Source: Sporichthya polymorpha DSM 43042 (GTDB taxonomy: Bacteria > Actinomycetota > Actinomycetes > Sporichthyales > Sporichthyaceae). Taken from it: a stretch of 64,000 bases of DNA. The notes below the pieces were generated by a model. That model saw only the letters and a list, made by a program, of their open reading frames with translations, was not told the DNA's origin and ran no database searches. The DNA lies in contig NZ_KB913029.1 in assembly GCF_000384115.1 (NCBI RefSeq), positions 1,584,907 through 1,648,906 of the forward strand, written 5' to 3'. A program made the position numbers and the translations under genes. Positions 8,632 to 55,228 of this stretch are shown piece after piece (within the stretch, counting starts at the first letter, position 1; each line of letters opens with the position of its first letter).

Positions 8632-9465
8632 ATGCGACCGGCCCCGTTCTCCTACCTCGAGCCGGGCACCCTGGACGAGGCGTGCCAGGTGCTCGCCGAC
8701 CGTACCGGCACGGACCCGGCCGCGGTCGCCGTCCTGGCGGGCGGTCAGAGCCTGGTCGCCCAGCTCAACGCCCGCCTCGTCCGGCCCGCGACGCTCGTCG
8801 GCATCCGCCGCCTGACCGAGCTCACCGCCGCCGACCGCACCGGCGACACCCTCCACCTCGGTGCCGCCGTCACCCAGCGCACCTGGCAGCAGCACCCGCT
8901 CGCCGAGCACACACCGCTGGTCGCCGCCGCGCTGAACCGCGTCGGCCACGTCCCCACCCGCAACCGCGGCACCCTCGGCGGCAGCGTCGCCTTCGCGGAC
9001 CCCACCGCCGAGCTCCCGACCGCCCTGCTCGCCCTCGACGCCGCGGTCCGCCTCCGCTCCGCGAGCGGTGAGCGCACGGTCCCCGTCGTCGAGTTCGGCA
9101 CCGGCCGCTTCACCACCGTCCGCCGGCCGGACGAGCTGCTCGTCGGCCTCGACGTCCCCGTCACCACCGCCCGCTGGGCGTTCGAGCAGCGGCACTACCG
9201 CCGCCACGGCAAGGTCTCGGTCGCCGCGCTCGCCCAGCCCGACGGCTCCGCCCGCGTCGCGCTCGGCGGCGTCGGGGACACGCCCCTGCTGCTCACCGTC
9301 TCCCCCGACGCCAAGGCCGACGCCGTCGTCGAGGAGGCGCAGGCCCTGCTCACCCCGAGCCCCGACCACCTCGTCAGCCCGGCCTACCGCCGCCGGCTGC
9401 TCGACCTCGCCCTCACCGCCGCCCTCGAGAACCTCCGCGGAACCGCCACCGGAGCTGCCGCATGA
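8632..9465 (+). CDS. Molybdenum hydroxylase, FAD-binding medium subunit (CoxM/XdhB-like)
   Basis: 277 residues. It contains the FAD-binding motifs of the CO dehydrogenase/xanthine dehydrogenase medium chain: AGGQSLVAQLNARLV near the N-terminus (~38-52) and the second loop NRGTLGGSVAFADPTAELP (~108-126). It accepts electrons from the FeS subunit and passes them to an acceptor. ATG 8632 has GAGG at 8622-8625; a TTG at 8626 is less likely. It is the first gene of the operon and its stop overlaps the small-subunit start (ATGA at 9462). Confidence 0.92.
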   Translation: MRPAPFSYLEPGTLDEACQVLADRTGTDPAAVAVLAGGQSLVAQLNARLVRPATLVGIRRLTELTAADRTGDTLHLGAAVTQRTWQQHPLAEHTPLVAAALNRVGHVPTRNRGTLGGSVAFADPTAELPTALLALDAAVRLRSASGERTVPVVEFGTGRFTTVRRPDELLVGLDVPVTTARWAFEQRHYRRHGKVSVAALAQPDGSARVALGGVGDTPLLLTVSPDAKADAVVEEAQALLTPSPDHLVSPAYRRRLLDLALTAALENLRGTATGAAA

Positions 9466-9980
9466 GCACCCCGACCGAGCTCGCCACCGACCAACTCGTC
9501 CGCCTGCGCGTCAACGGCGAACCGCTCACCGCCGTCGTCGAACCGCGCACCAACCTCGCCGACGTCCTGCGCGAGCAGGCCGGCCTGACGGGCACCCACA
9601 CCTCCTGCCACCAGGGGTGGTGCGGCGCCTGCACCGTCCTCATCGACGGCTGCTCGGCCCGCTCCTGTCTCACCCTCGCGGTCGCCGCGACCGACACCGA
9701 CGTCACCACCGTCGAAGGCCTCGGCGAACCCGACGGCTCCCTGACGGCCCTGCAGGAGGCGTTCGTCGAGCACTTCGCCTTCCAGTGCGGCTTCTGCACG
9801 CCGGGCTTCCTCGTCCTCGCCACCGAGATCCTCGACGAGGCCCGCGCCGGCACCACCTTCACCCGCGACGACCTGGCCTCGCGCCTGTCGGCCAACGTCT
9901 GCCGCTGCACCGGCTACGTCGGGATCCTGTCCGCCGTCGAGGCCGCCCTCGCCGCGCAGGGGACGGAGGTCTCCTCGTGA
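9462..9980 (+). CDS. Molybdenum hydroxylase, 2Fe-2S small subunit (CoxS/XdhC-like)
   Basis: 172 residues with both 2Fe-2S clusters. The plant-ferredoxin-type cluster uses Cys49, Cys54, Cys57 and Cys69 (SCHQGWCGACTV). The second helical-domain cluster uses Cys109, Cys112, Cys147 and Cys149 (QCGFCTPG and CRCTGY). It wires the molybdopterin subunit to the FAD subunit. All eight ligands are present. The gene overlaps its neighbours on both sides, so stoichiometric translation by coupling is likely. Confidence 0.95.
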   Translation: MSTPTELATDQLVRLRVNGEPLTAVVEPRTNLADVLREQAGLTGTHTSCHQGWCGACTVLIDGCSARSCLTLAVAATDTDVTTVEGLGEPDGSLTALQEAFVEHFAFQCGFCTPGFLVLATEILDEARAGTTFTRDDLASRLSANVCRCTGYVGILSAVEAALAAQGTEVSS

Positions 9981-12355
9981 CCGCCCAGGCCGAGCGCCCC
10001 ACCTACGTCGGCGCCCGCATCCCGTCCCGCAACGGCGCGCGGTTCGTCCGCGGCGCCGGGCGGTACGTCGACGACATCCACCTCCCCCGCGAGGCGACAC
10101 TCACGGTCCTGCGCAGCCCGCACGCGCACGCGCGGATCGTCTCCATCGACACCAGCCGCGCCGCGGCCCTCGACGGCGTCCTCGCCGTCGCCACCGGCGC
10201 CGAGCTCTTCGACCGGATCGGCCCGCAGAGCTACCTGTGGGACCTCCCGGGCCAGAAGGTCGGTCACGGCCGCCCGCTCGCGGTGGGGAAGGTCCGTCAC
10301 GTGGGCGAGCCCGTCGTCGCCGTCGTCGCCCGCGACCAGTACGTCGCCGAGGACGCGCTCGAACTGATCGACGTCGTCTACGAGCCCCTCCCGCCGGTCG
10401 TCGACGTCGACGCCGCGCTCGCCGAGAACGCCGGCCTCCTCCACGAGGAGTGGGGCGACAACATTCAGGTCCGCTCCGCGTGGCCGGTCGTGATCCCCGG
10501 CCTGCCCGAGCCGCCGGACGCCGGCGCCGCCCTCGAGGGCGCGCACGTCGTCGTCTCCGAGACCTTCGACGTCGCGCGCATGACCGCGACGTCGATGGAG
10601 ACGCGCGGCATCGTCTGCGACTACTCCCCCGGCGGCCCGAGCCTGACGATCTACAGCTCGACCCAGTCGCCCCATCAGGTCCGCCAGGGCCTCGCCGCCA
10701 TGCTCGGCCTCGCCGAGAACCAGATCCGCGTCATCGCCCCGGACGTCGGCGGCGCCTTCGGCATGAAGGCCGTCGTCTACCCCGAGGACGCGCTCGCCCC
10801 GTACTTCGCACTGCAGCTGCGTCGCCCGGTCCGCTTCGTCGAGCAGCGCGACGAGTCCTTCGTCGCCTCCACCCCGTCGCGGGCACAGCGCATGCAGCTC
10901 GAGCTCGGCTTCGACGCCGAGGGCCACATCGTCGGCCTGCGCTCGCGCTACCTGATCGACCTCGGCAGCGCCCCGTCCACCTGTGGCGCCGGGACCGGAT
11001 GGGCCACCGGCGCCCTGCTCTGCGGCCCGTACGCCGTCCCCGCCGTCGACATCCAGGCCAGCGCGGTCGTCACCAACAAGTCCCCGCTCGGCGCGTTCCG
11101 CGGCTTCGGCCAGCCCGAGGCGAACTTCCCGATGGAACGCCTCCTCGACATCGCCGCGCGCAAGCTCGGCATCGATCCCGTCGAACTCCGCCGCCGCAAC
11201 CTCGTCCCCGCCGACGCCTTCCCGTACACCAACGCGGCCGGGATGCTCCTCGACAGCGGCGACTACGCGGCCCTGCTCGATCTGGCGGTCTCCCGCCCGG
11301 CGTATCAGGAGGCGCTCGCCGAGCGCGACGCCGCCCGTGCCGAGGGAAGGCACGTCGGCCTCGGGGTCGCCTTCTACAACGAGTGCACGAACTTCGGCCC
11401 GTCCGGCGTCTTCCCGCTGATCGGCATCACCCAGGGCGGCTGGGACGCCACGACGATCGCCGTCGAGCCCGACGGCAAGATCCGCGTGACGATCAGTCAG
11501 ACACCGATGGGCCAGGGTGTCGAGACCGCGCTCGCCCAGCAGGCTGCCGACGCCTTCGGGGTCGACCTGGCCGACGTCACCGTCCACTTCGGGGACACCG
11601 CCTCCTCGCACTACACCGGCTACGCCAGTGGCGCGAGCCGCTCCGCCGGCATCGGCGGCTCTTCCCTGCTGGTCACCGCCGGCAAGGCCAAGGAGAAGCT
11701 ACGCGCGATCGCCGCGCACCTGCTCGAGGCCAACGAGGCCGACGTCGACCTCCTCCCCGGCGGCTTCGGCGTCCCGAACAGCGGCGTCGACCCGATTCCA
11801 CTGGCGCGAATCGCCGCCGCCGCGTACCAGGGCGGCAACCTGCCCGAGGGCATGGAGCCCGGTCTGGAGTTCCTCGGCGCGTTCGACCCGATGGCGCTCG
11901 CCTTCTCCTACGGCGTCGTCGTCGCCCTCGTCGAGCTCGACCCGGGCACCGGTCAGGTGACGGTCCGTCGGCTGATCGTCGGCCACGACTGCGGCAACCA
12001 GCTCAACCCCGCGATCGTCGAGAACCAGGTGATCGGCGGCGTCGTCCAGGGCCTCAGCACCGCGCTGCTCGAGGAACTCCCCTACGACGCCGACGGCCGC
12101 CCGCTGGCGACCTCGCTGCGGGACTACCCGCTGCCCGCGCCCACCGATCTCCCCGAGTTCGACCTGTTCCACACCGTGACCCCCACGCCGTTCACCCTCA
12201 ACGGGGCGAAGGGCGTCGGGGAGAGCGGAGTGATCGCGGCTCCGGCCGCGATCGTCAACGCGATCCAGGACGCGCTCCCGGCGGGAGCACCTGACATCAC
12301 TGCCATCCCGGTCCGCCCTGAGCGGATCCTCGACGCCTTCGGAGCGCACGCATGA
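9977..12355 (+). CDS. Molybdenum hydroxylase, molybdopterin-binding large subunit
   Basis: 792 residues from GTG 9977, which overlaps the small-subunit stop. Features of the family are GGAFGMK (substrate/cofactor domain), the active-site loop GAFRGFGQPE (~372-381), MGQGVETALAQQAADAFG and the catalytic-base motif KGVGESG with Glu749. The loop is of the xanthine dehydrogenase/form-II type. Aerobic CO dehydrogenase form I would need the Cys-containing AYRCSFR loop, so this is not a true CO dehydrogenase. The complex most likely hydroxylates a carbon next to nitrogen in an aromatic ring or oxidises an aldehyde. The following LLM, hydrolase and amidohydrolase genes favour a heterocycle. Confidence 0.92.
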   Translation: MTAQAERPTYVGARIPSRNGARFVRGAGRYVDDIHLPREATLTVLRSPHAHARIVSIDTSRAAALDGVLAVATGAELFDRIGPQSYLWDLPGQKVGHGRPLAVGKVRHVGEPVVAVVARDQYVAEDALELIDVVYEPLPPVVDVDAALAENAGLLHEEWGDNIQVRSAWPVVIPGLPEPPDAGAALEGAHVVVSETFDVARMTATSMETRGIVCDYSPGGPSLTIYSSTQSPHQVRQGLAAMLGLAENQIRVIAPDVGGAFGMKAVVYPEDALAPYFALQLRRPVRFVEQRDESFVASTPSRAQRMQLELGFDAEGHIVGLRSRYLIDLGSAPSTCGAGTGWATGALLCGPYAVPAVDIQASAVVTNKSPLGAFRGFGQPEANFPMERLLDIAARKLGIDPVELRRRNLVPADAFPYTNAAGMLLDSGDYAALLDLAVSRPAYQEALAERDAARAEGRHVGLGVAFYNECTNFGPSGVFPLIGITQGGWDATTIAVEPDGKIRVTISQTPMGQGVETALAQQAADAFGVDLADVTVHFGDTASSHYTGYASGASRSAGIGGSSLLVTAGKAKEKLRAIAAHLLEANEADVDLLPGGFGVPNSGVDPIPLARIAAAAYQGGNLPEGMEPGLEFLGAFDPMALAFSYGVVVALVELDPGTGQVTVRRLIVGHDCGNQLNPAIVENQVIGGVVQGLSTALLEELPYDADGRPLATSLRDYPLPAPTDLPEFDLFHTVTPTPFTLNGAKGVGESGVIAAPAAIVNAIQDALPAGAPDITAIPVRPERILDAFGAHA

Positions 12356-13356
12356 GCGAGTCGACCACCAGCCGCATCGGTGTCCTGCTGGGCAGCACCA
12401 CCCCGCCCGAGGACATCGCCCGCCTGTCGCGGGAGGTGGAGCAGGGCGGGTTCGGACAGCTCTGGATCCCCGAGGACTACTTCTTCCTCGGCGGCATCGC
12501 CGCCGCCGGCATCGCCCTCGGCGCCACCGAGCGCATCCCCGTGGGCCTGTCGGTCGTCTCCTCGATGGTCCGGCACCCCGCGCTGCTCGCCATGGAGATC
12601 GCGACGCTGAGCCGCGCGTTCCCCGGCCGCTTCCTCCCCGGCATCGGCCACGGCGTCCCCGCCTGGACCGCGCAGATGGGCCTCACCGTGAAGTCGCCGA
12701 TGACGGCGCTCCGCGAGAACCTCGTGCACGTCCGCTCGCTGCTCGCCGGCGAGAAGGTCAACCACACCGGCGGCATCCACGACTTCAATGAGGTCGTCCT
12801 CACGCACCCCGCGACCGAGACCGTGCCGATCTACACCGGCGTCCTCGGCGACAAGGGCGTCGCGCTCACCGGCGAACTGGCCGAGGGTCTCGTCGTCAGC
12901 GCGCTCGCGCCCGTCGAGTACGTCGCCGCCACCCGCGCCAAGCTCGACACCGCCGCGGCCGGCCGCGACGTCCGCCCCGAGCTCGTCACGCTCGTCGCGG
13001 TCAACCTGACGTCCGACGACAGCAAGGCCGACCTCGTCCGCCAGCAGCTGCGCCCCGTCCTCGCCTTCTACATCGCGGCCACCGGCCCCGGGCCGCTGTT
13101 CGGCGCGATCGAGGGCGCCAACGAGAAGGTCGCCGACATGATCGCCCGCGGCGGCTTCGAGACCGTGATGGCCGAGATGCCCGACGAGTGGATCGACCTG
13201 TTCGCCATCGCCGGCGGCCCGGCCCACGCGAAGGCCCGCATCCAGTCCTATCTCGACGCCGGCAGCGACAAGGTCGTGATCGCCACCGTCGTCCCCGAGG
13301 GCACCGAGTCCTCCCTCGCCGCGGCCCGCGAACTGCTCGCGGACTTCCCTCAATAG
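12352..13356 (+). CDS. LLM-class flavin/F420-dependent oxidoreductase
   Basis: 334 residues, a luciferase-like TIM barrel. Typical segments are the N-terminal strand RIGVLLGSTTPPEDIARLSREVEQGGFGQLWIPED split over ~8-42, RIPVGLSVVSSMVRHPALLAMEIATLS and GRFLPGIGHGVPAW. The family includes FMN monooxygenases such as RutA-type ring openers and F420-dependent reductases; these cannot be told apart by eye. Its place after the molybdenum hydroxylase suggests a second oxidation step on the hydroxylated substrate. The start overlaps the previous stop (ATGA). Confidence 0.85.
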   Translation: MSESTTSRIGVLLGSTTPPEDIARLSREVEQGGFGQLWIPEDYFFLGGIAAAGIALGATERIPVGLSVVSSMVRHPALLAMEIATLSRAFPGRFLPGIGHGVPAWTAQMGLTVKSPMTALRENLVHVRSLLAGEKVNHTGGIHDFNEVVLTHPATETVPIYTGVLGDKGVALTGELAEGLVVSALAPVEYVAATRAKLDTAAAGRDVRPELVTLVAVNLTSDDSKADLVRQQLRPVLAFYIAATGPGPLFGAIEGANEKVADMIARGGFETVMAEMPDEWIDLFAIAGGPAHAKARIQSYLDAGSDKVVIATVVPEGTESSLAAARELLADFPQ

Positions 13357-13398
13357 GCACCGTCCTGCCTGACCCGCACTCAGAAACTGGAGCACGCC

Positions 13399-13860
13399 AT
13401 GACCGATGTTGAGAAGGACACCGCAGCGATCCTCGAAGTCCACAACGGCTGGAACAAGTCGAACCTCGGGCTGGTCGCCGAGTCGATGCTGCCGTTCTTC
13501 CCCGAGGGGGACGGGTACCTGCAGTTCAACCTCAACGGCTTCACCTACCGCGGCAAGGCCGACAAGGCGAAGCTGTGGAACAACCTGCGGGCCGTCGGGG
13601 TCGACATCGTGCGCCTGGAGGAGACCGAGCCCCCCACGGTGCAGGTCTTCGGCGACGTCGCCCTGCTCACCTCGGAGGCCGAGGCGGAGCTCGTCATGCC
13701 GACCCCCACCGGCAAGCTCGAAAGTTCCGGCGTGACCCGCTTCCGCAACACCGAGTTCTACCGCCGCGACGACGGCAACGGGAACCCGGACTGGCGCATC
13801 TGGCACATGCACGTCAGCGAGGCCGCCCCCGAGGGCGCGCTGAAGTACGGGACGGAATGA
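13399..13860 (+). CDS. NTF2-like (SnoaL-type) small protein
   Basis: 153 residues with an NTF2-like cone fold pattern: N-terminal helix (AAILEVHNGWNKSNLGLVAESML), the F-x-Y-R-G-K-A helix turn, then long strands ending in WRIWHMHVSE. Such proteins act as isomerases, hydrolases, dehydratases or accessory subunits, and no catalytic residue can be assigned. It lies between the LLM gene and the hydrolase with short spacing, so it probably works on a pathway intermediate. The 42-bp gap before it is the largest in the operon. Confidence 0.75.
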   Translation: MTDVEKDTAAILEVHNGWNKSNLGLVAESMLPFFPEGDGYLQFNLNGFTYRGKADKAKLWNNLRAVGVDIVRLEETEPPTVQVFGDVALLTSEAEAELVMPTPTGKLESSGVTRFRNTEFYRRDDGNGNPDWRIWHMHVSEAAPEGALKYGTE

Positions 13861-13861
13861 C

Positions 13862-14671
13862 ATGACGTCCCGTCAGTCGAGGACCGTGGACGGACCGGTC
13901 GGCCCGATCGCGGTCGACGTGTTCGGCGAACCGACCGCGGACGGCACGGTGGTGCTGGTGCACCCCATCAACACCGCCGCCCTGGTCTGGGACCCGGTCG
14001 CCGAGCTCCTCGACCGGCCGGTGGTCGCGCTGGACCTGCGCGGCCACGGCCGGTCCCCGATGACCGGCCCGTTCGCGATCGAGGGCGGATGGCTCGACGA
14101 CGTGGTCGCCGTGCTCGACGGCCTGTCGCTGAACTCGGCCCACCTCGCGGGCGGTTCGCTCGGCGGCACGATCTCCCTCGCGGCCGCCGCGCTCCTCCCG
14201 GAGCGGGTCCGCAGCGTCACCTGCTTCGGCAGCACGCTCGGGGTCGGCGTCCCGACCGAGGCCATCGAGGCGATGGTGACCGAGCTCGAGACCAAGGGCA
14301 CCGTCCGCTACTTCGCGGACCTCGGCCCGCAGGTCGTCGGGGCGGCGTCGCGGGACGACCGCTTCGTCCTCGCCTCGCTCGCCGCCGCCGTCGGCGCCCG
14401 GGACACCGCGGTGATCACCGGCATCCTCCGCGGCGCGTTCAGCGCGGACATCCGGCACCTCGGCCTGTCCGGCATCAAGGTCCCCGTCCTCGCCGCCACC
14501 GGCACCGAGGACCCGACGTGCCCGCCGGAGATGACCGCCGAGATCGCCTCGGTCACGGGCGGCACCGCCGTCGAACTGCCGGGCCTCGGCCACCTGCCGA
14601 TGCTCGAGCAGCCGGCGCGGGTCGCCGAACTCCTCGTCCAGAACATCACCCAGAGCGAGGGCGCCGCATGA
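13862..14671 (+). CDS. Alpha/beta hydrolase (enol-lactonase/RutD-like)
   Basis: 269 residues with a complete triad. The nucleophile is Ser99 in GGSLGG, the acid is Asp217 (GTEDPTCP) and the base is His244 (GLGHLPMLEQP). The oxyanion motif HPINTAALVW is at ~34. Overall it resembles 3-oxoadipate enol-lactonase and RutD-type hydrolases that open lactones or cleave amide/carbamate bonds. It starts one base after the NTF2-like stop and overlaps the DUF1028 start, so it belongs to the same operon and probably hydrolyses a ring-opened or lactam intermediate. Confidence 0.85.
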   Translation: MTSRQSRTVDGPVGPIAVDVFGEPTADGTVVLVHPINTAALVWDPVAELLDRPVVALDLRGHGRSPMTGPFAIEGGWLDDVVAVLDGLSLNSAHLAGGSLGGTISLAAAALLPERVRSVTCFGSTLGVGVPTEAIEAMVTELETKGTVRYFADLGPQVVGAASRDDRFVLASLAAAVGARDTAVITGILRGAFSADIRHLGLSGIKVPVLAATGTEDPTCPPEMTAEIASVTGGTAVELPGLGHLPMLEQPARVAELLVQNITQSEGAA

Positions 14672-15582
14672 CGTACTCGATCGTCGCCCACGACGCGGAG
14701 ACCGGCCAGTTGGCCGTGGCGGGGCAGTCGCACTTCTTCGGCGTCGGCCGCCTCGTCGGCTGGGGCGAGGCCGGGGTCGGCGTCGCCGCCACGCAGGCCT
14801 TCGTCAACGTCGACCACGGCCCGCACGGCATCGAGCGGATGCGCGCCGGCGAGGAGCCGAAGGCGGCGCTCGACGCGCTGCTCGCGGCCGACGAGCTGGC
14901 CGCGTACCGGCAGGTCGGCTTCGTCGACGCGTCCGGCCGGGCCGCCGCGCACACCGGGTCGAGCTGCGCCCCGCACGCCGGTCACCTCGTCGGCGAGGGC
15001 GTCACGGTGCAGGGCAACATGCTCGCCTCGCCCGCGGTCTACACGGACATGCTCGACGCGTACCTGGCCACCGACGGGGACCTCGCCGAGCGCGTGATGG
15101 CTGCGATGCAGGCCGCCGAGGCCGCGGGCGGCGACGTCCGCGGCTCGCAGTCGGCGGTCCTGCGCGTGTACTCGGGCAACCGCACCGACAAGCCGTGGAA
15201 CGAGGTGCTCCTCGACATCCGCGTCGACGACCACCCGGACCCGATCGGCGAGCTCGCCCGGCTGCTGCCGCGCCACCGTGCGTTCGACCTCGTCGGCGGC
15301 GTCATCTTCGCCCCCGGCCTGACGATCGGCCCCTACGAGGGCGTCAGCGACGAACTGCTGACCGAGAAACTTTCCGGCCTCGCCGCCGCCGCCGAACTGC
15401 TCGGCGCCGACAACCGCGAGCCGGACTTCTGGCGGGCCGTGCTGCTGGCCCGCAGCGGCCGCACCGAGGAGGCCCGCGCGCTGTTCGCGGACCTGTTCTC
15501 CTACCGGCCCGGGCTTCGCGAGTTCCTCGCGGGCATCGGCCCGCTGGGCTTCCTCAGCAACGTCGAGGAGTACGTCCGTTGA
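14668..15582 (+). CDS. DUF1028 family protein (Ntn-hydrolase-like)
   Basis: 304 residues. The N-terminal ~220 residues are DUF1028: MTYSIVAHDAETGQLAVAG at the start, GEAGVGVAATQAFVN, and the hallmark VTVQGNMLASPAVYTDM. The C-terminal part (~235-304) is a helical extension with TPR-like character. The family has an Ntn-hydrolase-like fold and is found beside M20 peptidases and amide-metabolising genes; its reaction is, to my knowledge, not established. ATG 14668 overlaps the previous stop, and its own stop overlaps the TTG start of the M20 gene, so the two products are probably used together. Confidence 0.85.
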   Translation: MTYSIVAHDAETGQLAVAGQSHFFGVGRLVGWGEAGVGVAATQAFVNVDHGPHGIERMRAGEEPKAALDALLAADELAAYRQVGFVDASGRAAAHTGSSCAPHAGHLVGEGVTVQGNMLASPAVYTDMLDAYLATDGDLAERVMAAMQAAEAAGGDVRGSQSAVLRVYSGNRTDKPWNEVLLDIRVDDHPDPIGELARLLPRHRAFDLVGGVIFAPGLTIGPYEGVSDELLTEKLSGLAAAAELLGADNREPDFWRAVLLARSGRTEEARALFADLFSYRPGLREFLAGIGPLGFLSNVEEYVR

Positions 15583-16760
15583 CCAACGCCCGCAACGCGG
15601 TCGACACCGGCCGCTGCGTCGATCTCGCGACCGCGATGATCCAGTGCGACACCCGCAACCCACCGGGGAACGAGTCGCCGATCGTCCCGCTGATGACCGA
15701 CGTGATGAAGGGCCTCGGCGCCGATGTCGAGGTGTTCGAACCGGCTCCGGGCCGGCCGTCGCTGCTCGCGACGGTCGGGCCCTGCGACCGGTCCCGTCCG
15801 ATCCTGATGATCAACGGGCACCTCGACGTCGTCCCCGTGACCGAGAGCGAGTGGTCGGTGCCACCGTTCGCGGGCGTGGTCCGCGACGGCAAGCTGATGG
15901 GCCGCGGGGCCTGTGACATGAAGGGCGGCATCGCCGCCGCCATCGAGGGTCTGCGCGCCTGCCTCGACGCCGGCGTCCGCCTCGACACCGACCTCGTCTT
16001 CCACCTCGTCGCGGACGAGGAGACCGGCGGCCGCTGGGGCACCGCGGCGCTGCTGAACGCCGGGCGCATCACCGCGGACGCCGCCGTCGTGCCCGAGCCC
16101 AGCGAACTCGGCGTGTGCATCGCCGAGCGCGGCGTGCTCCTCGCGCGCATCGAGATCTTCGGTCGGGCCGGCCACGGCAGCGACCCCGCCGCCGCGCACT
16201 CCGCGGTCGCCGACGCCGCCCGCGTCACGCAGGCACTGCACCTGGCCCACTTCGACCCGGAGCCGCACCTGCTGCTCGGCCGGCCCAGCTGCAACGTCGG
16301 CGTCATCCGCGGCGGGACGGCTCCCAACGTCGTCGCGAGCCACTGCGTCCTCGAGATCGACCGCCGGGTTCTGCCCGGCCAGACCTGCGAGCAGGCGGTC
16401 GACTCGCTCCGCGTCATTCTCGACCCGCTCGGCGTCTCCTACTCGCTCGAGGTCCTCGGCTTCGCCGAGGCGTCCGAGCTGGCCGCCGAGAACCCGTTCG
16501 TCGGCTACCTCCAGGAGGTCTGCGGTGGCGTCGGCACCCCGACGCCGGTGCGCGGCCTGTGCCTCGGCACCGACGCCCGGTTCCTGCGCAACCAGCTCGA
16601 CATCCCGACCGTCGTCTACGGGCCGGGCTCGATGACCGTCGCCCACGCCGCCGACGAGTACGTCGAGGTCGCCGAACTGACGAAGGCCGCGGAGTCCTTC
16701 GCCGGGCTCTACACCAGCTTCGCCCGGTTCTTCGCCGAGAGCGTCGCCGGGATCACGTGA
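15579..16760 (+). CDS. M20-family metallo-amidohydrolase (ArgE/DapE-like)
   Basis: 393 residues. Metal-binding and catalytic motifs are intact: HLDVVP (His81, Asp83), GRGACDMKGG (Asp113), ADEETGG with the general base Glu147 and ligand Glu148, and the dimerisation/catalytic histidine in AGHGSDP. Members hydrolyse N-acyl or N-carbamoyl amino acids and related amides in the cytosol. The start is TTG 15579, which overlaps the DUF1028 stop (TTGA). It is the last gene of the operon and ends 21 bp from the convergent PucR gene. It likely releases an amino acid or amine from a ring-opened product. Confidence 0.88.
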   Translation: MTNARNAVDTGRCVDLATAMIQCDTRNPPGNESPIVPLMTDVMKGLGADVEVFEPAPGRPSLLATVGPCDRSRPILMINGHLDVVPVTESEWSVPPFAGVVRDGKLMGRGACDMKGGIAAAIEGLRACLDAGVRLDTDLVFHLVADEETGGRWGTAALLNAGRITADAAVVPEPSELGVCIAERGVLLARIEIFGRAGHGSDPAAAHSAVADAARVTQALHLAHFDPEPHLLLGRPSCNVGVIRGGTAPNVVASHCVLEIDRRVLPGQTCEQAVDSLRVILDPLGVSYSLEVLGFAEASELAAENPFVGYLQEVCGGVGTPTPVRGLCLGTDARFLRNQLDIPTVVYGPGSMTVAHAADEYVEVAELTKAAESFAGLYTSFARFFAESVAGIT

Positions 16761-16781: not shown

Positions 16782-18392
16782 TCAGGTGATCGGCAGCAGC
16801 CGGGTGTGGAGCTCGACGAGGAACCGCTGCTGCGGGTCGGAGAGGTCGACCTCGCAGAGCGCCTCGATGCGGTGCAGCCGGTAACGCAAGGTGTTCCGGT
16901 GGATCTGCAGGCGCTTCGCGGCCTCGCTGACGTCGCAGCCGGCGTCGAAGTAGGCGCGGAGTGTCCGCAGGTAGTCGGTGTCCCGCGCCGAGCCGGTCTG
17001 CAGGACGTCGAGGACGCCGTCGAGCAGACCCGGGTTGCCCTTCACGATCTCGCCTAGTTCGGCGAGGACGGTGTTCGGCCGGACCTCCGCCAGCAGCGCC
17101 GTCCGCGGCCGGGACTGTGACGCGAGCAGGTCAACGGCGCGGTCGAGCGAGCGGCGGATGCCAGGAATCTCGACGTCCCCGGTCAGCGCGTCGCTGACAC
17201 ACGCGGAGAACGTCGCCGAGAACAGGGAGCCGGCGCGCTGGCGCATCCGCTCGGCGAGGGCGACGACGTCCTCGGACCCCCAGTGCGGGGTGAGCAGATA
17301 GACCCGCCCGTCGAGCACGGCGGCCGCCGAGCCCCGGCGCAGCAGGCGGGCGTACGCGGCGAGCTGCCGGTCGTCCTCGTAGGTGCCGTTCGCACTCCCG
17401 ACCGGACTCCCGCTGCCGCACCCGCTCGCGCCGAGCGCGATCAGGCACCAGGAGTCCTGGCCCGGCCCCGGCAGCAACTCGGCGGCCAGCGCCGAGAGCG
17501 ACGCGGTCCCCCGCAGGACGCTGCGCAGCAGGTCCGCGGCGAGCAGGTCGGCGTCAACACCGCGGAGCGGGGCGCTGAAGAACGGCGCCGCCGCGGCGGC
17601 CACGTCGGCGAGCGCGTCGAGGTCGGGCTCCCAGTGCGGGGCACCGCCCGCCGCCAGGCAGATGTAGCCGACGATCGCGTCGCGGGCGACGACGGGGCAC
17701 AGCGCGCGCGGCGCCGCCCCCGGGATGTCGATGCGCATCGGCGTGCGGCCGCTGCGCAGGCGCGCCCACTGGCCCGAGTCCTCCAGCCACGTGCGCGCGT
17801 CGGACGGGGTGCGCCGGGCGAGGATCGCGGAGGTTCGCAGCTGGTCGACGGGGTGGCCGAGGTTCGCGAAGGCGAGCGGGCGCAGCTCCTCGTCGGTGAT
17901 CGAGATCGGCCCCTCGAGCAGGTAGGCCGCGGCCTCGGCGAGTTCGTACAGGTCGAGCACGGCCGGGCGGCCGATCGCCCGCGAGAGCCGATCGGCGGGG
18001 GCCAGGGAGCGGGCGAGCGTCGCGATGTCGTCCCACGGCACCTCGGCCGCCGCGACCAGCACCGTCACGCCGAGCCGGTCCGCCCGGCGCCGCAACGTCG
18101 CCGGATCGCCCGGGGCCTTGACCACGACCGCCGCCGCGTCGGCGTCGGACGCCGCGGTGAGGACCTGGTCGACCAGCGCCGGCGGAAGGTCCGGCGCGGG
18201 CACGAGCACGACGTCGCCGGCCTCGACCGCGTCGGGGACCGCCGGGTCCCAGATCGTGACGCCGCGGACCTCGCGGTCCAGCCCGCCGGGGGCGGTCACC
18301 ACGTCGAAGCACCCGCGGCCGAGCAGCCGGCCGATCCCCAGGCCGGGCGGGGGGCAGGCCTCGGTGCCGGGTCGGTTCTCCAGTGCAGTCAT
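16782..18392 (-). CDS. PucR family transcriptional regulator (copy 1)
   Basis: 536 residues. It has the N-terminal PucR domain, a central GGDEF-like regulatory region and a C-terminal helix-turn-helix of the HTH_30 type (DVSEAAKRLQIHRNTLRYRL). PucR was first described as an activator of purine catabolism in Bacillus. ATG 18392 is chosen with GGAG upstream; an ATG at 18437 lacks a ribosome site. It sits at the end of the molybdenum-hydroxylase operon in opposite orientation and directly downstream of the second PucR gene. It could be read from its own promoter near 18400-18490 or as the thirteenth gene of the minus-strand operon. Confidence 0.88.
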   Translation of the reverse strand: MTALENRPGTEACPPPGLGIGRLLGRGCFDVVTAPGGLDREVRGVTIWDPAVPDAVEAGDVVLVPAPDLPPALVDQVLTAASDADAAAVVVKAPGDPATLRRRADRLGVTVLVAAAEVPWDDIATLARSLAPADRLSRAIGRPAVLDLYELAEAAAYLLEGPISITDEELRPLAFANLGHPVDQLRTSAILARRTPSDARTWLEDSGQWARLRSGRTPMRIDIPGAAPRALCPVVARDAIVGYICLAAGGAPHWEPDLDALADVAAAAAPFFSAPLRGVDADLLAADLLRSVLRGTASLSALAAELLPGPGQDSWCLIALGASGCGSGSPVGSANGTYEDDRQLAAYARLLRRGSAAAVLDGRVYLLTPHWGSEDVVALAERMRQRAGSLFSATFSACVSDALTGDVEIPGIRRSLDRAVDLLASQSRPRTALLAEVRPNTVLAELGEIVKGNPGLLDGVLDVLQTGSARDTDYLRTLRAYFDAGCDVSEAAKRLQIHRNTLRYRLHRIEALCEVDLSDPQQRFLVELHTRLLPIT

Positions 18393-18451
18393 CGCCGTCT
18401 CCGTTTCGCCTGCTCCGGAGAGTAGGAACGACGGCATCCGGGTTCAGTAGT

Positions 18452-18493: not shown

Positions 18494-20104
18494 TCACATG
18501 TTTCCGTCGCTCTCGTCCGCCCACGTGACTCCGGCCACTCGTGTCGCGAGGTGCAGCACGAGGCGGTCATCCGGGTCGTCCAGGTCGACGGCGAGCAGCT
18601 TCCGGATCCGGTCGATGCGCGCGATGACCGTGTTGCGGTGCACCCGCAGCGACGCCGCGGTGTCGGTGGCCGAGGACTCCCGGTCCAAATAGCGACGCAG
18701 CGTCCGCACCAGCTCCCCGGACGGGTCGGCCGCCGTCAGCGGGGCGAGGATCTCGGCCGCCTGCGCCCGCAGCGGAGCGGAGGCGTACCAGCCCATGAGC
18801 AGCCGCTTCGCACTCATCGCGCGGACGTGCTCGACCACGCCGGTTCCCTCCTCGGTGAGCGCGAGCAGGCAGGCCTGGCGCGCCTCCCCGAGCGACTCGG
18901 CGATGCCGGCCGTCCCGGCGTGCGCCCCACCGACCCCCGCGCAGAGCGAGAGCCCGGAATGGTCGGCCTCGACGGCACGCAGCGTCCCCTGCACCGCCGC
19001 GAGGAGCGGCGCGGTGTCGAGCGCGTCGGCCTCGGTCTCGGCGGTGACCCAGAACGCCCAGCCCTCGGAGCGCTCCACCAGCGTCGAGGTGACCGAACGC
19101 CGGGCCAGTTCCTCCTCGAGCTCCCGCACGAGCTCGGACTGCGGCGGCATTGTCCCGGCCCGGGACACCGCGATCTGCACCGCCGTGTGCCAGCCCGCGA
19201 GCCGCCACCCGAGTGCCGTCGCCCGTTCCACCGCGCGCGCCGACGGCGCCTCGGCCTGGTCGAGGATCGCGGTGAGCAGGACCGACCGCTGCCGGCCCTC
19301 CCGCTCCGACTGGACCGCCCCGGCGGCCAGATGCACGGCGAACGCCAGCGCGGCGATCGACATCGACTGCCGGATCGGCCCGATCAGCGCGCGGGTCGCG
19401 GTGTTCAGCCGCGCGATCAGCCAGTACCCGGCGTGCGCGGTGATGTCCCGCTGCACCGGCTGCAGCAGCGCGACGTCGGCGCCCCCGAGCGGGAACGTCG
19501 CGGCCGTCGGGCGCGCTCCGCCCAGGTGGGCCGCGATGTCCGGCCGCAGCGTCAGCTCGAACGCGGATTCGTCACCGGCGACGTACCGGCACTCGGCGTC
19601 GACGAGAACGACGGCACCGCCGATCGCCTGACCGAGCACGCGGGTCAGCTGTTCCGGGCTCGACGGCGGGGTGGAGAAGCGGTCGGCGGTGGTGCCGAGG
19701 ATCCGCAGACCCGCGATCTCCGGCGCGCGGACGTACGGGTCGAAGGTCGCCGCCAGCGCGGCCGGCGCCACGCCCTCGGCCACGATCAGCGGCACCGCCA
19801 GTTTGTCCGCGAGCCGGCGGGTGACGAGCGGGACCGGCCGGCGCGGCCGCTCGGCGATGATCCCGGCCAGCCCGGCGCTGTGGCCGAGCCGGAGCACCAG
19901 GTCCGCGGCGAGATCCTCGACGGCGAGGTGCTCGGGACCGAAGACGGCGAGGCTGCCGGAGGCGAGCGCGCCGACCTCGGTCGCGGACACGGTCGGCACG
20001 ATCATGCGCACCGGTCGGTCGAGGCCGACCTCACCGCCGAGAACCTCGTGCGCCAGCAGTCCCATGCCGAGCAACTGACGTACCGTCACGAAGTTGTCGT
20101 TCAC
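18494..20104 (-). CDS. PucR family transcriptional regulator (copy 2)
   Basis: 536 residues, the same length and layout as copy 1 but clearly divergent. The N-terminal PucR domain starts at VRQLLGMGLLAHEVLGG, and the C-terminal HTH is TAASLRVHRNTVIARIDRIR. GTG 20104 overlaps the stop of the hydantoinase-like gene (GTGA), so it is the last gene of the transport/hydantoinase operon. It probably senses the transported compound or a breakdown product and controls this operon, the neighbouring molybdenum-hydroxylase operon, or both. Confidence 0.88.
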   Translation of the reverse strand: MNDNFVTVRQLLGMGLLAHEVLGGEVGLDRPVRMIVPTVSATEVGALASGSLAVFGPEHLAVEDLAADLVLRLGHSAGLAGIIAERPRRPVPLVTRRLADKLAVPLIVAEGVAPAALAATFDPYVRAPEIAGLRILGTTADRFSTPPSSPEQLTRVLGQAIGGAVVLVDAECRYVAGDESAFELTLRPDIAAHLGGARPTAATFPLGGADVALLQPVQRDITAHAGYWLIARLNTATRALIGPIRQSMSIAALAFAVHLAAGAVQSEREGRQRSVLLTAILDQAEAPSARAVERATALGWRLAGWHTAVQIAVSRAGTMPPQSELVRELEEELARRSVTSTLVERSEGWAFWVTAETEADALDTAPLLAAVQGTLRAVEADHSGLSLCAGVGGAHAGTAGIAESLGEARQACLLALTEEGTGVVEHVRAMSAKRLLMGWYASAPLRAQAAEILAPLTAADPSGELVRTLRRYLDRESSATDTAASLRVHRNTVIARIDRIRKLLAVDLDDPDDRLVLHLATRVAGVTWADESDGNM

Positions 20105-21489
20105 CGCTCCCCTTCCCGGTCCGCGCCGACGGTGAGCACCGGGCCCACCGCCCGCACCCGTATCCGGATGCAGGAGGTCGGCACATAGGTCATCAGCGTC
20201 TCGGAGACCGTGCCGATCCGGACGCGCCGCGGGTCCGCGCCCGCCCGGATCGCCGCCTCCGCAGCGAGCCCGCGCGCCTCGGCGACGACCTCGGCGCGAG
20301 TGCGCTCGCCGAGCCAGAAGATCCGGTCGACCGTTCCGGCGGCCTCGCCGACGGCTGCCCCGATCGCCGCGGCGAAGGGCGCGTCGTCCGGGCGGAGGAC
20401 CCGACCCGGCAGGAGCAGATCGGGCAGCCGACGCGCGTTGCGGACGAGCACCAGGGGCCCGGTGAGCCCGGCGACCGCCCGCGCGATCGTCGGCCCGGGC
20501 GTGTCGGGGGGCGCCTCGGTCACGCGCACCTCGCGCAGGTTCGTCCGGATACCGAGCACCTCGACCAGCCGGCCCGACTCCTGCGGCCAGCCGTCCACCG
20601 CCGCGCTGACCCGCACCCGGCGGCCGTCGTCGTCGATCACCACGACGGTCGCCTCTCCGGCCAGGTGCACCCCACCGACCCGGGCGCTGCTGTGCAGCGC
20701 GCCGACCGTCCGCAGCGGGCGGCGGGCCGCCGACTGCGCGGGAAACACCGTCCCGTCGCCGTGCACCAGGTAGAGCTCGTCAACCAGTCCGCGCTCGGAG
20801 AGGACCGCGGCGACCCCGTCGAGCACGCGTCGCGCGGTGGGGGCCAGCGCGGCGTCGAGGATCGCCGCGTTCTCCCGCTCCAGCAGGCCGAGACCGCCCT
20901 CGTCGCCGCCGGTCACGACCGGCACCTCCGGGCCGAGGGCGTCCGCGAGCAGCACCGCAGCCTCCTGCTCGTGCGCGCCGTTCGCCTGCGCGTGCACCGC
21001 CGTGACCGCCACCGCCGCCACGGGTTCGCGGCGGGTCCGGCACGTCCGCGCGAAGGCCTCGACCGCGGCGCGGTCGAGCGGAGCCGCGACGCGTCCGTCG
21101 TACTCGTGTCCGCCCGCGACCAGGGCGACCGGACCCCGCACCGCGGCGGTCAGCCGGTCCGGCCAGCCCGGGAACGGCGGGACCGACGCGGTCGCCGGCG
21201 CACCGATGCGCAGCACCCCGACCCGGGCGCACTCCGCCGGACGGTGCAGCGGACGTGTCAGCGCCGCCGCCAGCACGACGCGGGCGACCCGCCCCGGCGC
21301 CGCGGCCGCGCCGAGGGCGTCGAGCAGGGTCGCGACCGTGGCCGCGGGATCCGCGTCGGGCGGGTCGTAGTCGTTCGCGTCGTCCGGCAGGACCGCGCGC
21401 GCCAGCACCTCGTCCCCCGGTCCGAGCACGACGGCGCACGCGTCCCGCCGCCCGACCGCGAGCCCGACCCGCCGGTCCGCCGCACTCAC
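20101..21489 (-). CDS. Hydantoinase/oxoprolinase (HyuA)-like protein with degenerate nucleotide motifs
   Basis: 462 residues, in the short form of the hydantoinase A/oxoprolinase family. Overall architecture and C-terminal region (TVSETLMTYVPTSCIRIRV) fit the family. However, the first phosphate-binding loop, normally GGTxTDAV, reads VGRRDACAV (~12-20). The second, normally DIGGTTTD, reads VIDDDGRRV (~284-292). ATP binding in the usual ASKHA manner is therefore doubtful. It starts at GTG 21489 overlapping the DUF917 stop and overlaps the PucR start. HyuA-like plus DUF917 is a recurrent pair in cyclic-amide metabolism genes; this copy may be a diverged or regulatory partner. Confidence 0.75.
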   Translation of the reverse strand: MSAADRRVGLAVGRRDACAVVLGPGDEVLARAVLPDDANDYDPPDADPAATVATLLDALGAAAAPGRVARVVLAAALTRPLHRPAECARVGVLRIGAPATASVPPFPGWPDRLTAAVRGPVALVAGGHEYDGRVAAPLDRAAVEAFARTCRTRREPVAAVAVTAVHAQANGAHEQEAAVLLADALGPEVPVVTGGDEGGLGLLERENAAILDAALAPTARRVLDGVAAVLSERGLVDELYLVHGDGTVFPAQSAARRPLRTVGALHSSARVGGVHLAGEATVVVIDDDGRRVRVSAAVDGWPQESGRLVEVLGIRTNLREVRVTEAPPDTPGPTIARAVAGLTGPLVLVRNARRLPDLLLPGRVLRPDDAPFAAAIGAAVGEAAGTVDRIFWLGERTRAEVVAEARGLAAEAAIRAGADPRRVRIGTVSETLMTYVPTSCIRIRVRAVGPVLTVGADREGER

Positions 21490-22550
21490 GCGCGCGCGGG
21501 GACGACGTCGAGGTCGATGCCGAACGCCCGTGGTCCGGCGCAGGTGTGGCCCGCCGGGGTGTGCCACTGCGGGTCGACGGAGCTCGCGATCACGTGAACG
21601 TGCTGGCCGACGACGACGTCCGGCGACTGCAGCAGGACGCCGGAGTCGATGTCGACGAGGTTGATCAGGTCGGGGACCGTGACGACGGGGACGCCGTCCT
21701 CGGTCGCGACGAGGTTCTCGCTCTGGAAGTCGATGCGCAGCGACCGCGTCCCGTCGGTGGACTCCAGACTCAGCGTCCCCTTGGCGAACCCCTCGTCGAG
21801 GGACTGCACCACCTCGTGGACGACGCCGCTGAAGAGAATCCGGCCGGCGCACAGTTCGAGGAACGGAACGTAGTTCTCCGCCGGCCCCGGCTCGACGCTG
21901 CGCAGCGCCGCCCCCAACGCGGCGCACTGCGTCAGTGCGCGCTTCGACCCGACCTCCGCGCACTGCTGCACGTTCAGCAGGTAGGCGCTGCACATCGCGA
22001 CCAGACCCATGCTCGGCAGGCAGCTGCGGAGCAGCGAACTGACGGTGGTGTTGTCGGCCGCCGTCAGCACCGCGGAGGACCCGGCCGAGTCGACGAGGAT
22101 GATCGGGGAGATCGGGAGCCCGGCGAGCGCGAACACCGTCATCTCGAGCTTGGGGAACGTGCGCCGCATCCCGTCGACGTCGAGGCACGGCAGACCGAGC
22201 TGCGCCGCGGCGACGAGCGGCAGCAGCGCGTTCACGGGGCCGAGCTGGACGGGCAGCACCCCGACGACCGGCCTCCCGGCGTGGGCCTCGAGCGCGGCCC
22301 GCAGCGCGGCCGCCTCCTCGAGACCGTGGAACTTCTCGATCACGGAGTGCGGCGCTCCGGCCGTCAGCACCGGCAGCACGAGGCCGTCCGGGTCGAGCTC
22401 CTCGGCGTCGACCAGCCGCACCGGGCCGTGCCGCTCGAGCGCCGTGTGCAGCATCTGCCGGGGGAGGTACGGGTCGCCGCCGCCACCGCCGCCGTGGAAC
22501 AGCGCGCCCAGCGCGAGGTCGTCGACGCCCTCGGGGCCGAACAGCCGCAC
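21486..22550 (-). CDS. DUF917 family protein (hydantoinase-associated)
   Basis: 354 residues. The N-terminal ALGALFHGGGGGGDPYLP (~12-29) is the family hallmark, followed by the PVVGVLPVQLGPVNALLPLVAA and LPCLDVDGMRRTFPKLEM segments. DUF917 proteins occur next to hydantoinase/oxoprolinase and cytosine-permease-like genes; their own reaction is unknown. The start is GTG 22550 with an excellent ribosome site TGGAGGTGG just upstream. It follows the ACT-like gene by 14 bp and overlaps the HyuA-like gene. Confidence 0.85.
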   Translation of the reverse strand: MRLFGPEGVDDLALGALFHGGGGGGDPYLPRQMLHTALERHGPVRLVDAEELDPDGLVLPVLTAGAPHSVIEKFHGLEEAAALRAALEAHAGRPVVGVLPVQLGPVNALLPLVAAAQLGLPCLDVDGMRRTFPKLEMTVFALAGLPISPIILVDSAGSSAVLTAADNTTVSSLLRSCLPSMGLVAMCSAYLLNVQQCAEVGSKRALTQCAALGAALRSVEPGPAENYVPFLELCAGRILFSGVVHEVVQSLDEGFAKGTLSLESTDGTRSLRIDFQSENLVATEDGVPVVTVPDLINLVDIDSGVLLQSPDVVVGQHVHVIASSVDPQWHTPAGHTCAGPRAFGIDLDVVPARA

Positions 22551-22564
22551 GCCACCTCCAGGTC

Positions 22565-22819
22565 CTACGCCCGCGCGACCAGCCTCGCAGATTCGACCTC
22601 GACATCGGTCACGTCCACCATGCGCGCGACCGCGGCGGCGACGCGACCGCCGCGGCCGTTCGCCGTCTCGACCGTGCACGAGATCCGCGTCGTCCCGGTC
22701 GGCACGGTCCGGCACTGGAGCTCCCGGATCCGGGCGCCGCGCGCGGTCAGCAGCACGACGACCCGGGCCAGGACCGCCTCGGAACCGACGGCGGTGATCC
22801 GCAGATCGGTCAGCTCCAT
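22565..22819 (-). CDS. Small ACT-domain-like protein
   Basis: 84 residues whose pattern of strands and helices ([54 protein letters not shown]) fits a single ACT domain. It resembles the acetolactate synthase small subunit, where ACT domains bind amino acids. ATG 22819 lies inside the end of fgd, overlapping by 10 bp. In this operon it may be an amino-acid sensor or an accessory subunit of the DUF917/HyuA-like pair. The family call is by eye and moderately sure. Confidence 0.6.
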
Positions 22820-23847
22820 GACCGGAGTCGGGGCATCACGTCGGCGGAGAACTGCTCCATAAACCGGACCTGGTCCGCGCCCGGGAAGTGGATCACCAGG
22901 TTGGTGAAGCCGGCCTCCAGGTACGGGAGCATGCCCTCCATCGCCTGTTCCGGCGTGGACGCGACGATCCATCGCTTGGCGACCTGCTCGATCGGCAGCT
23001 CGTCGGCGAGGCGCTCCATCTCCTGGGAGCTGGTGACCGAGTGCTTCTGCTCCGCGGTCAGCGACAGCGGAGCCCAGAACCGGGTCGCGTTCAGCGCGTA
23101 CTCCGGGTCGGCGTCGTAGGAGAGCTTGACCTCGATCATCCGGTCCAGGCTCTCCGGGCTTCGCCCGGCGTGGGAGATGCCCTCGTCGATCGCGGGCACC
23201 AGCTCCTCCTGGTAGAGCGCCATGCCCTTGCCCGAGGTGCAGATGAACCCGTCCCCGACCCGGCCCGCGTAGCGGGCCACCACCGGCCCGCCGGCGGCGA
23301 CGTAGATCGGGATCGGCTGCTCCGGCCGGTCGTACAGCGTCGCCCCGACCGTCGTGTAGTACTCGCCGGAGTGGTCGACCGGCTTGTCCTCGGTCCACAG
23401 GCGGCGCATCAGCTCGATCGCCTCACGCATCCGGGCGAAGCGCTCCTTGAACGCGGGCCACTCCATCCCGGAGACCGCGATCTCGTTCAGCGCCTCGCCC
23501 GTGCCGAGGCCGAGCATGACTCGCTCCGGGTACAGGCACCCCATCGTGGCGAACGCCTGCGCGATCACCGCCGGGTTGTAGCGGAAGGTCGCGGTCAGCA
23601 CCGAGGTGCCGAGCACGATCCGCTCCGTGCGCTCGCCGACGGCCGTCATCCACGCCAGCGAGAACGGGGCGTGCCCACCGTTGTGCCGCCAGGGCTGGTA
23701 GTGGTCCGAGACCACCGCCGAGTCGAAGCCGTAGCGCTCGGCCGCGACCCCGAACTCGACCAGGTCCCGCGGACCGAACTGCTCGGCCGACGCCTTGTAG
23801 CCGATGCGCACGGCGCTGGTGCGCTCCGCGCCCCCCGCGGCACTCAC
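22810..23847 (-). CDS. fgd: F420-dependent glucose-6-phosphate dehydrogenase
   Basis: 345 residues, closely matching the mycobacterial FGD. Conserved stretches include [59 protein letters not shown] and [15 protein letters not shown]. Active-site residues recalled from FGD1 are all present: the Asp-His of SDHYQPW, the Glu of GTGEALNE, the Thr/Lys of ICTSGKG, the Lys of AEQKHS and the Arg of AKRWIV. The enzyme oxidises glucose-6-phosphate and reduces cofactor F420. GTG 23847 overlaps the preceding stop. It is unusual to find it inside a transporter/hydantoinase operon; it may supply F420H2 to an LLM enzyme of the pathway. Confidence 0.87.
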
Positions 23848-25157: not shown

Positions 25158-25855
25158 GATGCGAGGCCTCCCAGGTACGAGTGCGCAATCGTTTCTTCGC
25201 TGATCTCGGACGGCTCGGCGACGTACGTCAGCCGGCCGCGGTCGAGGATGTAGACGTAGTCGGCGAGTTCGAGCGCACGGGCGACGTACTGCTCGACGAC
25301 GAGCAGCGAGATGCCGGCGTCCGCGAGCCGCCGGAGGTAGACGAAGATGTCGTCGACGATCCGCGGCGCGAGACCCATCGAGACCTCGTCGAGCAGAACG
25401 ACCGACGGTGAGCTGATGTAGGCCCGGGCGAGCGCGAGCATCTGCTGCTCACCGCCGGACATCGTCCCGGCGCGCTGGTCGAGCCGTTCACCGAGACGCG
25501 GGAACACGTCGGCGACGTCACGGATCGCCTTCCGCTTGTCCACGCCGGGCGGGGTCTGCAGGCGGATGTTCTCCGCGACGGTCAGCGAGGGGAAAATCCC
25601 GCGGCCCTCGGGCACATGGCACAGACCGCGCCGGGCGAGCTGCTCCGAACGCTTGCCCGTCATGTCCTTGCCCTCCAGCGACACGGATCCGGTCGTGGGC
25701 CGGAGCTGACCCGACGCGACACGCAGCAGGGTCGTCTTGCCGGCCCCGTTCGCCCCCAGCAGGGCGACGACCGACGACGGAGGGACCGTCAGATTCACGT
25801 TGCGCAGGACCAGACCGGTGTCGTACCCGGCCGAGATGTTCGTCAGCTCAAGCAT
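25154..25855 (-). CDS. Liv-type ABC transporter ATP-binding protein (LivF-like), island 1
   Basis: 233 residues. Walker A GANGAGKTT (~34-42), signature TMSGGEQQM, Walker B SVVLLDEVSMGLAP and a switch histidine-equivalent region VVEQY are all present; LCHVPEGRGIFPSLTV is the LivF hallmark. One of the two ATPases that power the branched-chain-amino-acid-type importer. The start overlaps the end of the LivG-like gene by 8 bp, and the stop overlaps the secreted-protein gene. Confidence 0.92.
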   Translation of the reverse strand: MLELTNISAGYDTGLVLRNVNLTVPPSSVVALLGANGAGKTTLLRVASGQLRPTTGSVSLEGKDMTGKRSEQLARRGLCHVPEGRGIFPSLTVAENIRLQTPPGVDKRKAIRDVADVFPRLGERLDQRAGTMSGGEQQMLALARAYISSPSVVLLDEVSMGLAPRIVDDIFVYLRRLADAGISLLVVEQYVARALELADYVYILDRGRLTYVAEPSEISEETIAHSYLGGLAS

Positions 25856-29516: not shown

Positions 29517-29543
29517 GTTCGTCCTCCGACTCGACGTGGGGGG

Positions 29544-50160: not shown

Positions 50161-50853
<693 letters not shown>

Positions 50854-50855
50854 CC

Positions 50856-51701: not shown

Positions 51702-51703
51702 TG

Positions 51704-53224: not shown

Positions 53225-53226
53225 AG

Positions 53227-55197: not shown

Positions 55198-55228
55198 CGA
55201 CGAACCTCCACCCCTTCTGCTCGGTCAC

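Follow-up and report, generated by a model that had tools for sequence, protein, structure and literature searches.

We have analyzed a 64,000-nucleotide stretch of the Sporichthya polymorpha DSM 43042 genome (RefSeq assembly GCF_000384115.1, contig NZ_KB913029.1, positions 1,584,907 to 1,648,906; hereafter the window), which carries a run of eight forward-strand genes at positions 8632-16760. An initial annotation had described this run as a possible N-heterocycle degradation operon with mostly 4-bp overlaps between its genes. Pfam and NCBIfam profile searches, in which bit scores were set against family cut-offs, located all eight genes with their predicted domains, and five of the seven junctions read in the sequence are indeed 4-bp overlaps (9462-9465, 9977-9980, 12352-12355, 14668-14671 and 15579-15582). 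The other two are a 42-bp gap and a 1-bp gap, upstream and downstream of the NTF2-like gene, respectively. A scan for consensus promoters found nothing. Although the genes had been placed correctly, linked genes continue to position 36619, and the functional unit is larger than eight genes, covering roughly 8632-36619 (~28 kb; hereafter the island).

The run opens with a molybdenum hydroxylase of the xanthine oxidase family in three subunits: a CoxM-like FAD subunit (8632-9465; FAD_binding_5, PF00941, 140 bits), a CoxS-like subunit with two [2Fe-2S] clusters (9462-9980; PF01799, 87.6 bits, and PF00111, 32.8 bits) and a CoxL-like molybdopterin (MoCoBD) subunit with a GTG start (9977-12355; PF02738, PF20256 and PF01315). 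The FAD, 2x[2Fe-2S] and molybdenum cofactor domains are all present, together with the catalytic Glu (KGVGESG). The AYRCSFR loop with the Cu-binding Cys of form-I carbon monoxide dehydrogenase (CODH) does not occur in CoxL, where the aligned site reads GAFRGFGQPEA; this alignment rules out form-I CODH and upholds the choice of an activity other than CO oxidation. CoxL scored 510.8 bits against the CODH model TIGR02416 (cut-off 991) and 576.8 bits against its best NCBIfam model, NF041018 for glyceraldehyde dehydrogenase (cut-off 790), and it reached the cut-off of none of the NCBIfam models. Its closest solved structures, 8uem (CODH, 488 bits) and 1t3q (quinoline 2-oxidoreductase, 472 bits), are about equally near. 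Oxidation of CO or an aldehyde as the leading interpretation was rejected on the active-site loop and on the curated cut-offs that were not reached.

The remaining five genes of the run begin with an LLM (luciferase-like monooxygenase)-class oxidoreductase, LLM1 (12352-13356; PF00296, 153.6 bits). It is followed by a small NTF2-like protein in which His, Asp, Arg and Glu residues are invariant (13399-13860), a gene call that is borne out by an NTF2/ketosteroid-isomerase-like predicted fold (model confidence, pLDDT, 87.7) although its Pfam score of 21.6 bits lies just under the cut-off of 22. The alpha/beta hydrolase (13862-14671; PF12697) is nearest in type to enol-lactonases and esterases, with PcaD-type NCBIfam matches below cut-off, and its Ser99, Asp217 and His244 are intact and invariant among aligned relatives. 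A DUF1028 protein (14668-15582; PF06267, 233 bits) and an M20 deacylase of the ArgE/DapE type with a TTG start (15579-16760; TIGR01910, 241.3 bits, cut-off 217.6) complete the run. In the latter, the metal ligands and bases H81, D83, D113, E147, E148, E173 and H356 are invariant in the relatives aligned.

The DUF1028 protein was modeled with a pLDDT of 90.3, and the model matches the crystal structure 2IMH (SPO2555), released in 2006, with a Z score of 30.7 over 209 residues at 32% identity. The next structural matches are proteasome beta subunits and HslV, with Z scores of about 11.7. By its predicted fold, DUF1028 is thus an N-terminal nucleophile (Ntn) hydrolase of the Thr-nucleophile type, and the predicted nucleophile, Thr2 after the initiator Met, is found in all 12 core sequences (those from loci of the type described below) and in control sequences with a clear start. 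Since the modeled Ntn fold is accompanied by this invariant Thr2, amide hydrolysis is the chemistry expected of the family. The suggestion that DUF1028 acts on an amide in concert with the M20 enzyme is supported to the extent that the predicted structure is of an amide-hydrolase type and the coupling to M20 recurs in several loci. SPO2555 shares the fold and the N-terminal Thr after Met and forms the seventh Ntn-hydrolase subfamily in SCOPe; the island protein differs by an extra C-terminal helical region and by its LLM, NTF2-like, alpha/beta hydrolase and M20 setting. One paper lists 2IMH/SPO2555 as a Thr-type Ntn subfamily with no peer-reviewed data (PMC9140057), and no published function for the DUF1028 family was found in the literature searched.

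The five genes from LLM1 to M20 form a core. Contiguous copies, with 54-71% protein identity, are found in Mycolicibacterium porcinum, M. houstonense, Amycolatopsis taiwanensis and Sciscionella marina, and none of these four loci contains a molybdenum hydroxylase. In the last three species the core is followed by genes for DUF917, HyuA-like, PucR2 and PucR1 proteins, the same types that lie beside it in the window. Embleya carries the order hydrolase-NTF2-LLM-DUF1028-M20, after which come an NCS1 permease and a bona fide PucR regulator (PF07905, 86.6 bits), and in A. taiwanensis an NCS1 permease lies on the far side of the PucR genes; such nucleobase/allantoin-type permeases accompany the core in these two lineages. 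More divergent versions occur on an M. branderi plasmid (PucR-type regulator, NTF2, alpha/beta hydrolase, DUF1028, LLM, two further alpha/beta hydrolases, flavin reductase and RibBA, with M20 nearby), in a group of three genomes, G153, G234 and G041 (NTF2-DUF1028-LLM with a dipeptide-type importer, M20 and an alpha/beta hydrolase, and amidohydrolases around them), in genome G182 (LLM, NTF2, a fused hydrolase-M20 gene, M20 and DUF1028) and in a genome of another class, G458 (Liv importer, LLM, NTF2, LLM and the end of a DUF1028 gene). The G182 fusion joins the alpha/beta hydrolase to an M20 domain in a single 672-aa polypeptide (L021:8565-10583, minus strand). Genes at these loci were called with a codon-model caller that is unreliable on some lower-GC loci, and key loci were read by tblastn or plain open reading frame listing.

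Among 296 genomes sampled from the class, the NTF2-like protein occurs in 7 and DUF1028 in 82, and all 7 of the former also encode DUF1028 (hypergeometric probability ~1e-4), although several of the 7 are closely related and represent about three independent lineages (the window's genus, the G153 group and G182), to which the separately found named genomes are additional. The two genes lie within ~4 kb of each other in each of the 7. A phylum-wide search with the NTF2 profile returned mostly weak partial matches (E about 1e-4 to 1e-6), of which only that in G458 was convincing. As a control, 40 other, non-core DUF1028 neighborhoods of ~13 kb each were read, with the DUF1028 gene itself called in 32; they contained no NTF2-like protein, two M20, one LLM and one alpha/beta hydrolase gene, and the core set in none. 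The 12 core DUF1028 proteins group together with three solitary ones in a tree, but its branches are long and do not establish that they share one origin. Coupling of DUF1028 to M20 next to an oxidoreductase of the flavin or LLM type occurs in more than one setting: FAD monooxygenase, RidA, DUF1028 and M20 genes make up another kind of operon, seen at L121:4730-8302 and L128:5258-8845, the latter continuing with an aspartase-like lyase and a CN_hydrolase. Many of the control loci resemble one another (L103:4838-8272, L106), with DUF1028 adjoining an FGGY carbohydrate kinase and a phosphofructokinase gene (checked with Pfam for L103 only).

In another genome of the window's genus (G012), the eight genes are kept in identical order at 88-98% protein identity, and the rest of the island to 36619 is likewise kept. 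The DUF1028 and NTF2-like genes are absent from G053, a third member of this genus, and at least the five-gene core is therefore accessory. Beyond the run, the island continues mainly on the minus strand. Two regulators come first, PucR1 (16782-18437; HTH_30, PF13556, 80.8 bits; PF07905, 31.6 bits, cut-off 33.5) and PucR2 (18494-20104; HTH_30 and GGDEF_2, PF07905 not matched). Both are of the PucR/CdaR type by HTH_30, in line with the two neighboring PucR-family regulators first reported, although the PucR N-terminal domain is present only in the first and there under its cut-off. The accompanying hint of purine catabolism is weak; neither regulator reaches the PF07905 cut-off. Next are a HyuA-like protein (20101-21489; PF05378, partial) and a DUF917 (S-Me-THD-like) protein (21486-22550, with an uncertain start that may reach to 22715; PF06032 and PF20906). 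The DxGGTxTD ATP loop of the HyuA-like protein is lost (AVGRRDAC in the window), as it is in A. taiwanensis and Sciscionella, and is kept in G182; from these sequences, the protein may be a conserved pseudo-ATPase, perhaps serving as a binding or regulatory partner. DUF917 scored far below the thiohydantoin desulfurase models NF058532 (93.4 of 450 bits) and NF058529 (60.5 of 440 bits).

An F420-dependent glucose-6-phosphate dehydrogenase (FGD; 22810-23847, minus strand; TIGR03554, 559.8 bits, cut-off 420) lies next to a protein at 23844-25157 that looks secreted or anchored and has no family matches; the latter was left out of the island gene list. A Liv-type ATP-binding cassette (ABC) importer then occupies 25154-30992 on the minus strand (PF00005, PF02653 and PF13458), comprising LivF (25154-25855), LivG (25848-26621), a fused permease (26672-28729) and a binding protein (29544-30992). 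A second Liv-type importer is present at 50161-57887 on the same strand, its ATPases ~57% identical to those of the first, and adjoins another P450 (56589-57887), marking a possible paralogous island. The island's own cytochrome P450 (31165-32418, minus strand; PF00067) is 48.5% identical to one directly upstream of the M. porcinum core. At the far end, an indolepyruvate ferredoxin oxidoreductase-like (POR/IOR-like) gene on the plus strand (32699-36118; POR, TPP and DUF6537 domains) is paired with a minus-strand Lrp/AsnC regulator (36119-36619; PF13404 and PF01037). This pair accompanies the core in four lineages (the window's genus, M. houstonense, Sciscionella and the G153 group) and occurs at none of the control DUF1028 loci. 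Because the two travel with the core, the oxidoreductase gene points to a 2-oxo acid as the likely product.

Outside the genus, the best CoxL homolog in the class sample is in G182 (617.7 bits and 42.5% identity, the next homolog scoring 538.7). The molybdenum hydroxylase genes there are divergent from a CoxG-LLM-XdhC unit whose LLM shares 47% identity with LLM1, and the surrounding ~20 kb holds FGD, two PucR-type regulators, HyuA, DUF917 and a second molybdenum hydroxylase. Among 28 CoxL loci examined, this was the sole one with an LLM1 homolog within 1.5 kb of CoxL. The G182 pairing is therefore independent support for the link between molybdenum hydroxylase and LLM proposed at the outset, although in other genera the hydroxylase lies outside the five-gene core. 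Chance proximity of the CoxMSL genes to the core was favored at first, given the four relatives without a molybdenum hydroxylase, and was then weakened by the G182 locus.

LLM1 is closest to F420-dependent methylene-tetrahydromethanopterin reductases (NF002619, 149.8 bits, below the cut-off of 276), and its best solved relatives are F420 enzymes; on these matches, it is more likely F420-dependent. FGD regenerates F420H2. The window's genome has three FGD copies, of which one is inside the island; FGD also adjoins PucR in G182 and, in M. houstonense, lies ~4.3 kb beyond PucR1; in M. porcinum the beginning of an FGD-like gene is seen next to the core, where the contig ends. The proximity of LLM1 to F420 reductases, together with FGD in the island and near PucR elsewhere, leads us to prefer, with moderate confidence, a reductive step using F420H2. 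Of the "flavin- or F420-dependent oxidation" that had been suggested, the F420 alternative thus gains and the oxidative direction loses ground. The F420 biosynthesis gene cofD was found in 12 of 12 core genomes tested, a result that discriminates little between F420 and FMN because F420 is common in this class of bacteria. Extra FGD copies near catabolic genes, that at 22810-23847 in the window being one, are an observation in their own right.

We interpret the island as encoding an inducible pathway that takes up an N-heterocyclic or cyclic-amide compound and breaks it down, a reading to which we assign a probability of roughly 50% and in which we infer both the substrate and the order of steps. 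The compound would be imported by the ABC importer, or by an NCS1 permease in some relatives, and a ring carbon would be oxidized by the three-subunit molybdenum hydroxylase, probably with the P450, in the manner of azaheterocycle hydroxylases already known. The hydroxylated ring would then be reduced, and so dearomatized, by LLM1 using F420 that the island FGD maintains in its reduced form, the NTF2-like protein may isomerize, hydrate or dehydrate the intermediate, and the alpha/beta hydrolase would open an ester or lactone. Successive amide-bond cuts by DUF1028, through Thr2, and by the coupled M20 metallo-deacylase would follow, and the POR/IOR-like enzyme could convert a 2-oxo acid product to an acyl-CoA. 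More tentatively, and as an unlikely but specific proposal, this may constitute an undescribed actinobacterial route in which an F420H2-dependent LLM dearomatizes a molybdenum-hydroxylated ring and DUF1028 hydrolyzes a ring-opened or cyclic amide ahead of M20. The N-heterocycle operon first proposed is supported in part, by its conserved catabolic gene set, its non-CODH molybdenum enzyme and the NCS1 permeases that accompany the core in two other lineages, while the unit is larger, taking in both PucR genes, HyuA-like, DUF917, the importer, P450, POR/IOR-like and AsnC genes, the LLM step is preferably reductive and the purine link is weak. Several observations weigh against our interpretation. 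Among the core loci compared, only those of the window's genus have the molybdenum hydroxylase next to the five-gene core; the loss of the ATP loop makes a standard ATP-driven hydantoinase step by the HyuA-like protein unlikely; the evidence from PucR, NCS1 and Liv genes is guilt by association, with NCS1 in just two lineages; and the flavin reductase and RibBA beside the LLM of the M. branderi DUF1028 operon (L046:20436-22228) suggest FMN, with a dedicated flavin supply, at that locus.

The last of these bears on a variant of the same reading in which LLM1 is an FMN-type monooxygenase of the two-component kind and opens the ring by oxidation, as happens in the Rut pyrimidine pathway. An FAD monooxygenase does stand in place of the LLM in two other DUF1028-M20 operons, yet the best curated and solved relatives of LLM1 are F420 enzymes, the island has FGD and not a flavin reductase, RutA is absent from the LLM1 matches, and the operonic LLM of M. 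branderi (411 aa) is not the LLM1 ortholog, which lies at L046 9773-10771; we regard this variant as possible, though on the unlikely side. The core could instead degrade a peptide-like or N-acyl compound (a cyclic dipeptide, an amino-acid hydantoin or an N-acyl amino acid), not an aromatic N-heterocycle, and release an amino acid whose 2-oxo acid is passed to the POR/IOR-like enzyme. An ArgE/DapE-type M20, an Ntn amidase fold, the HyuA-like/DUF917 pair, a Liv-type importer and the POR/IOR-like enzyme would all suit such a substrate, and the surroundings of cyclodipeptide-oxidase-like genes are enriched in DUF917 and hydantoin-type genes (PMC11055893). It would, however, leave the molybdenum hydroxylase, LLM1, the NTF2-like protein and the P450 unneeded, and no aminotransferase was present among the identified island genes, nor was a cyclodipeptide oxidase recognized there. 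We consider this explanation unlikely.

It is less likely again that two or more independent pathways lie side by side, with the molybdenum hydroxylase acting on CO or an aldehyde and unrelated to the hydrolytic core. The core without this enzyme in all relatives outside the genus is what would be expected of separate pathways, and the top NCBIfam model for the enzyme is a glyceraldehyde dehydrogenase, though below cut-off. Against separation, CoxL and LLM1 are coupled by a 4-bp overlap, the AYRCSFR loop is absent, and in G182 a related molybdenum hydroxylase and LLM are paired with PucR, HyuA, DUF917 and FGD. That the island is part of a natural-product biosynthetic cluster we consider very improbable: P450, NTF2/SnoaL-like, LLM and alpha/beta hydrolase proteins are common tailoring enzymes, but assembly-line genes were not recognized in the island, and the genes that do recur are those for importers, PucR-type regulators and amide hydrolases.

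For our preferred reading, that of a catabolic island for an N-heterocyclic or cyclic-amide compound, the conserved core has a practical value in that it fixes the partners of DUF1028 (LLM, NTF2-like, alpha/beta hydrolase and M20), narrows the chemistry to test and places DUF1028 at the amide-cutting end of a pathway. As an aid to annotation, a DUF1028 protein in the core setting is probably a catabolic enzyme, whereas across the class the neighbors of DUF1028 are different in most cases. If true, the F420 step would bring ring reduction with F420 into the bacterial catabolism of N-heterocycles.

As a catabolic operon, the island is of a known type of system, and its gene combination and DUF1028 context appear new in the literature searched. 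Quinoline 2-oxidoreductase (1T3Q) and other azaheterocycle molybdenum hydroxylases share with it three separate subunits and the catalytic Glu in VGES, and the Arg-Gly loop compares as GAFRGFGQPEA in the island CoxL and GAYRGVG in 1T3Q. Nicotine catabolism in Arthrobacter shares a molybdenum hydroxylase, an alpha/beta hydrolase and a PucR-like activator, with weak matches to PmfR; to our knowledge, it has no LLM/NTF2/DUF1028/M20 core. Rut pyrimidine degradation shares an LLM-class enzyme and an alpha/beta hydrolase, but LLM1 has no RutA match and the island hydrolase reaches only 25.5 of 238.5 bits for RutD, which places the island outside Rut. Reductive pyrimidine and nicotinate routes follow the same proposed logic, in which the ring is reduced and amides are then hydrolyzed; their enzymes belong to other families, and the island would use F420H2 and LLM1 for the reduction.

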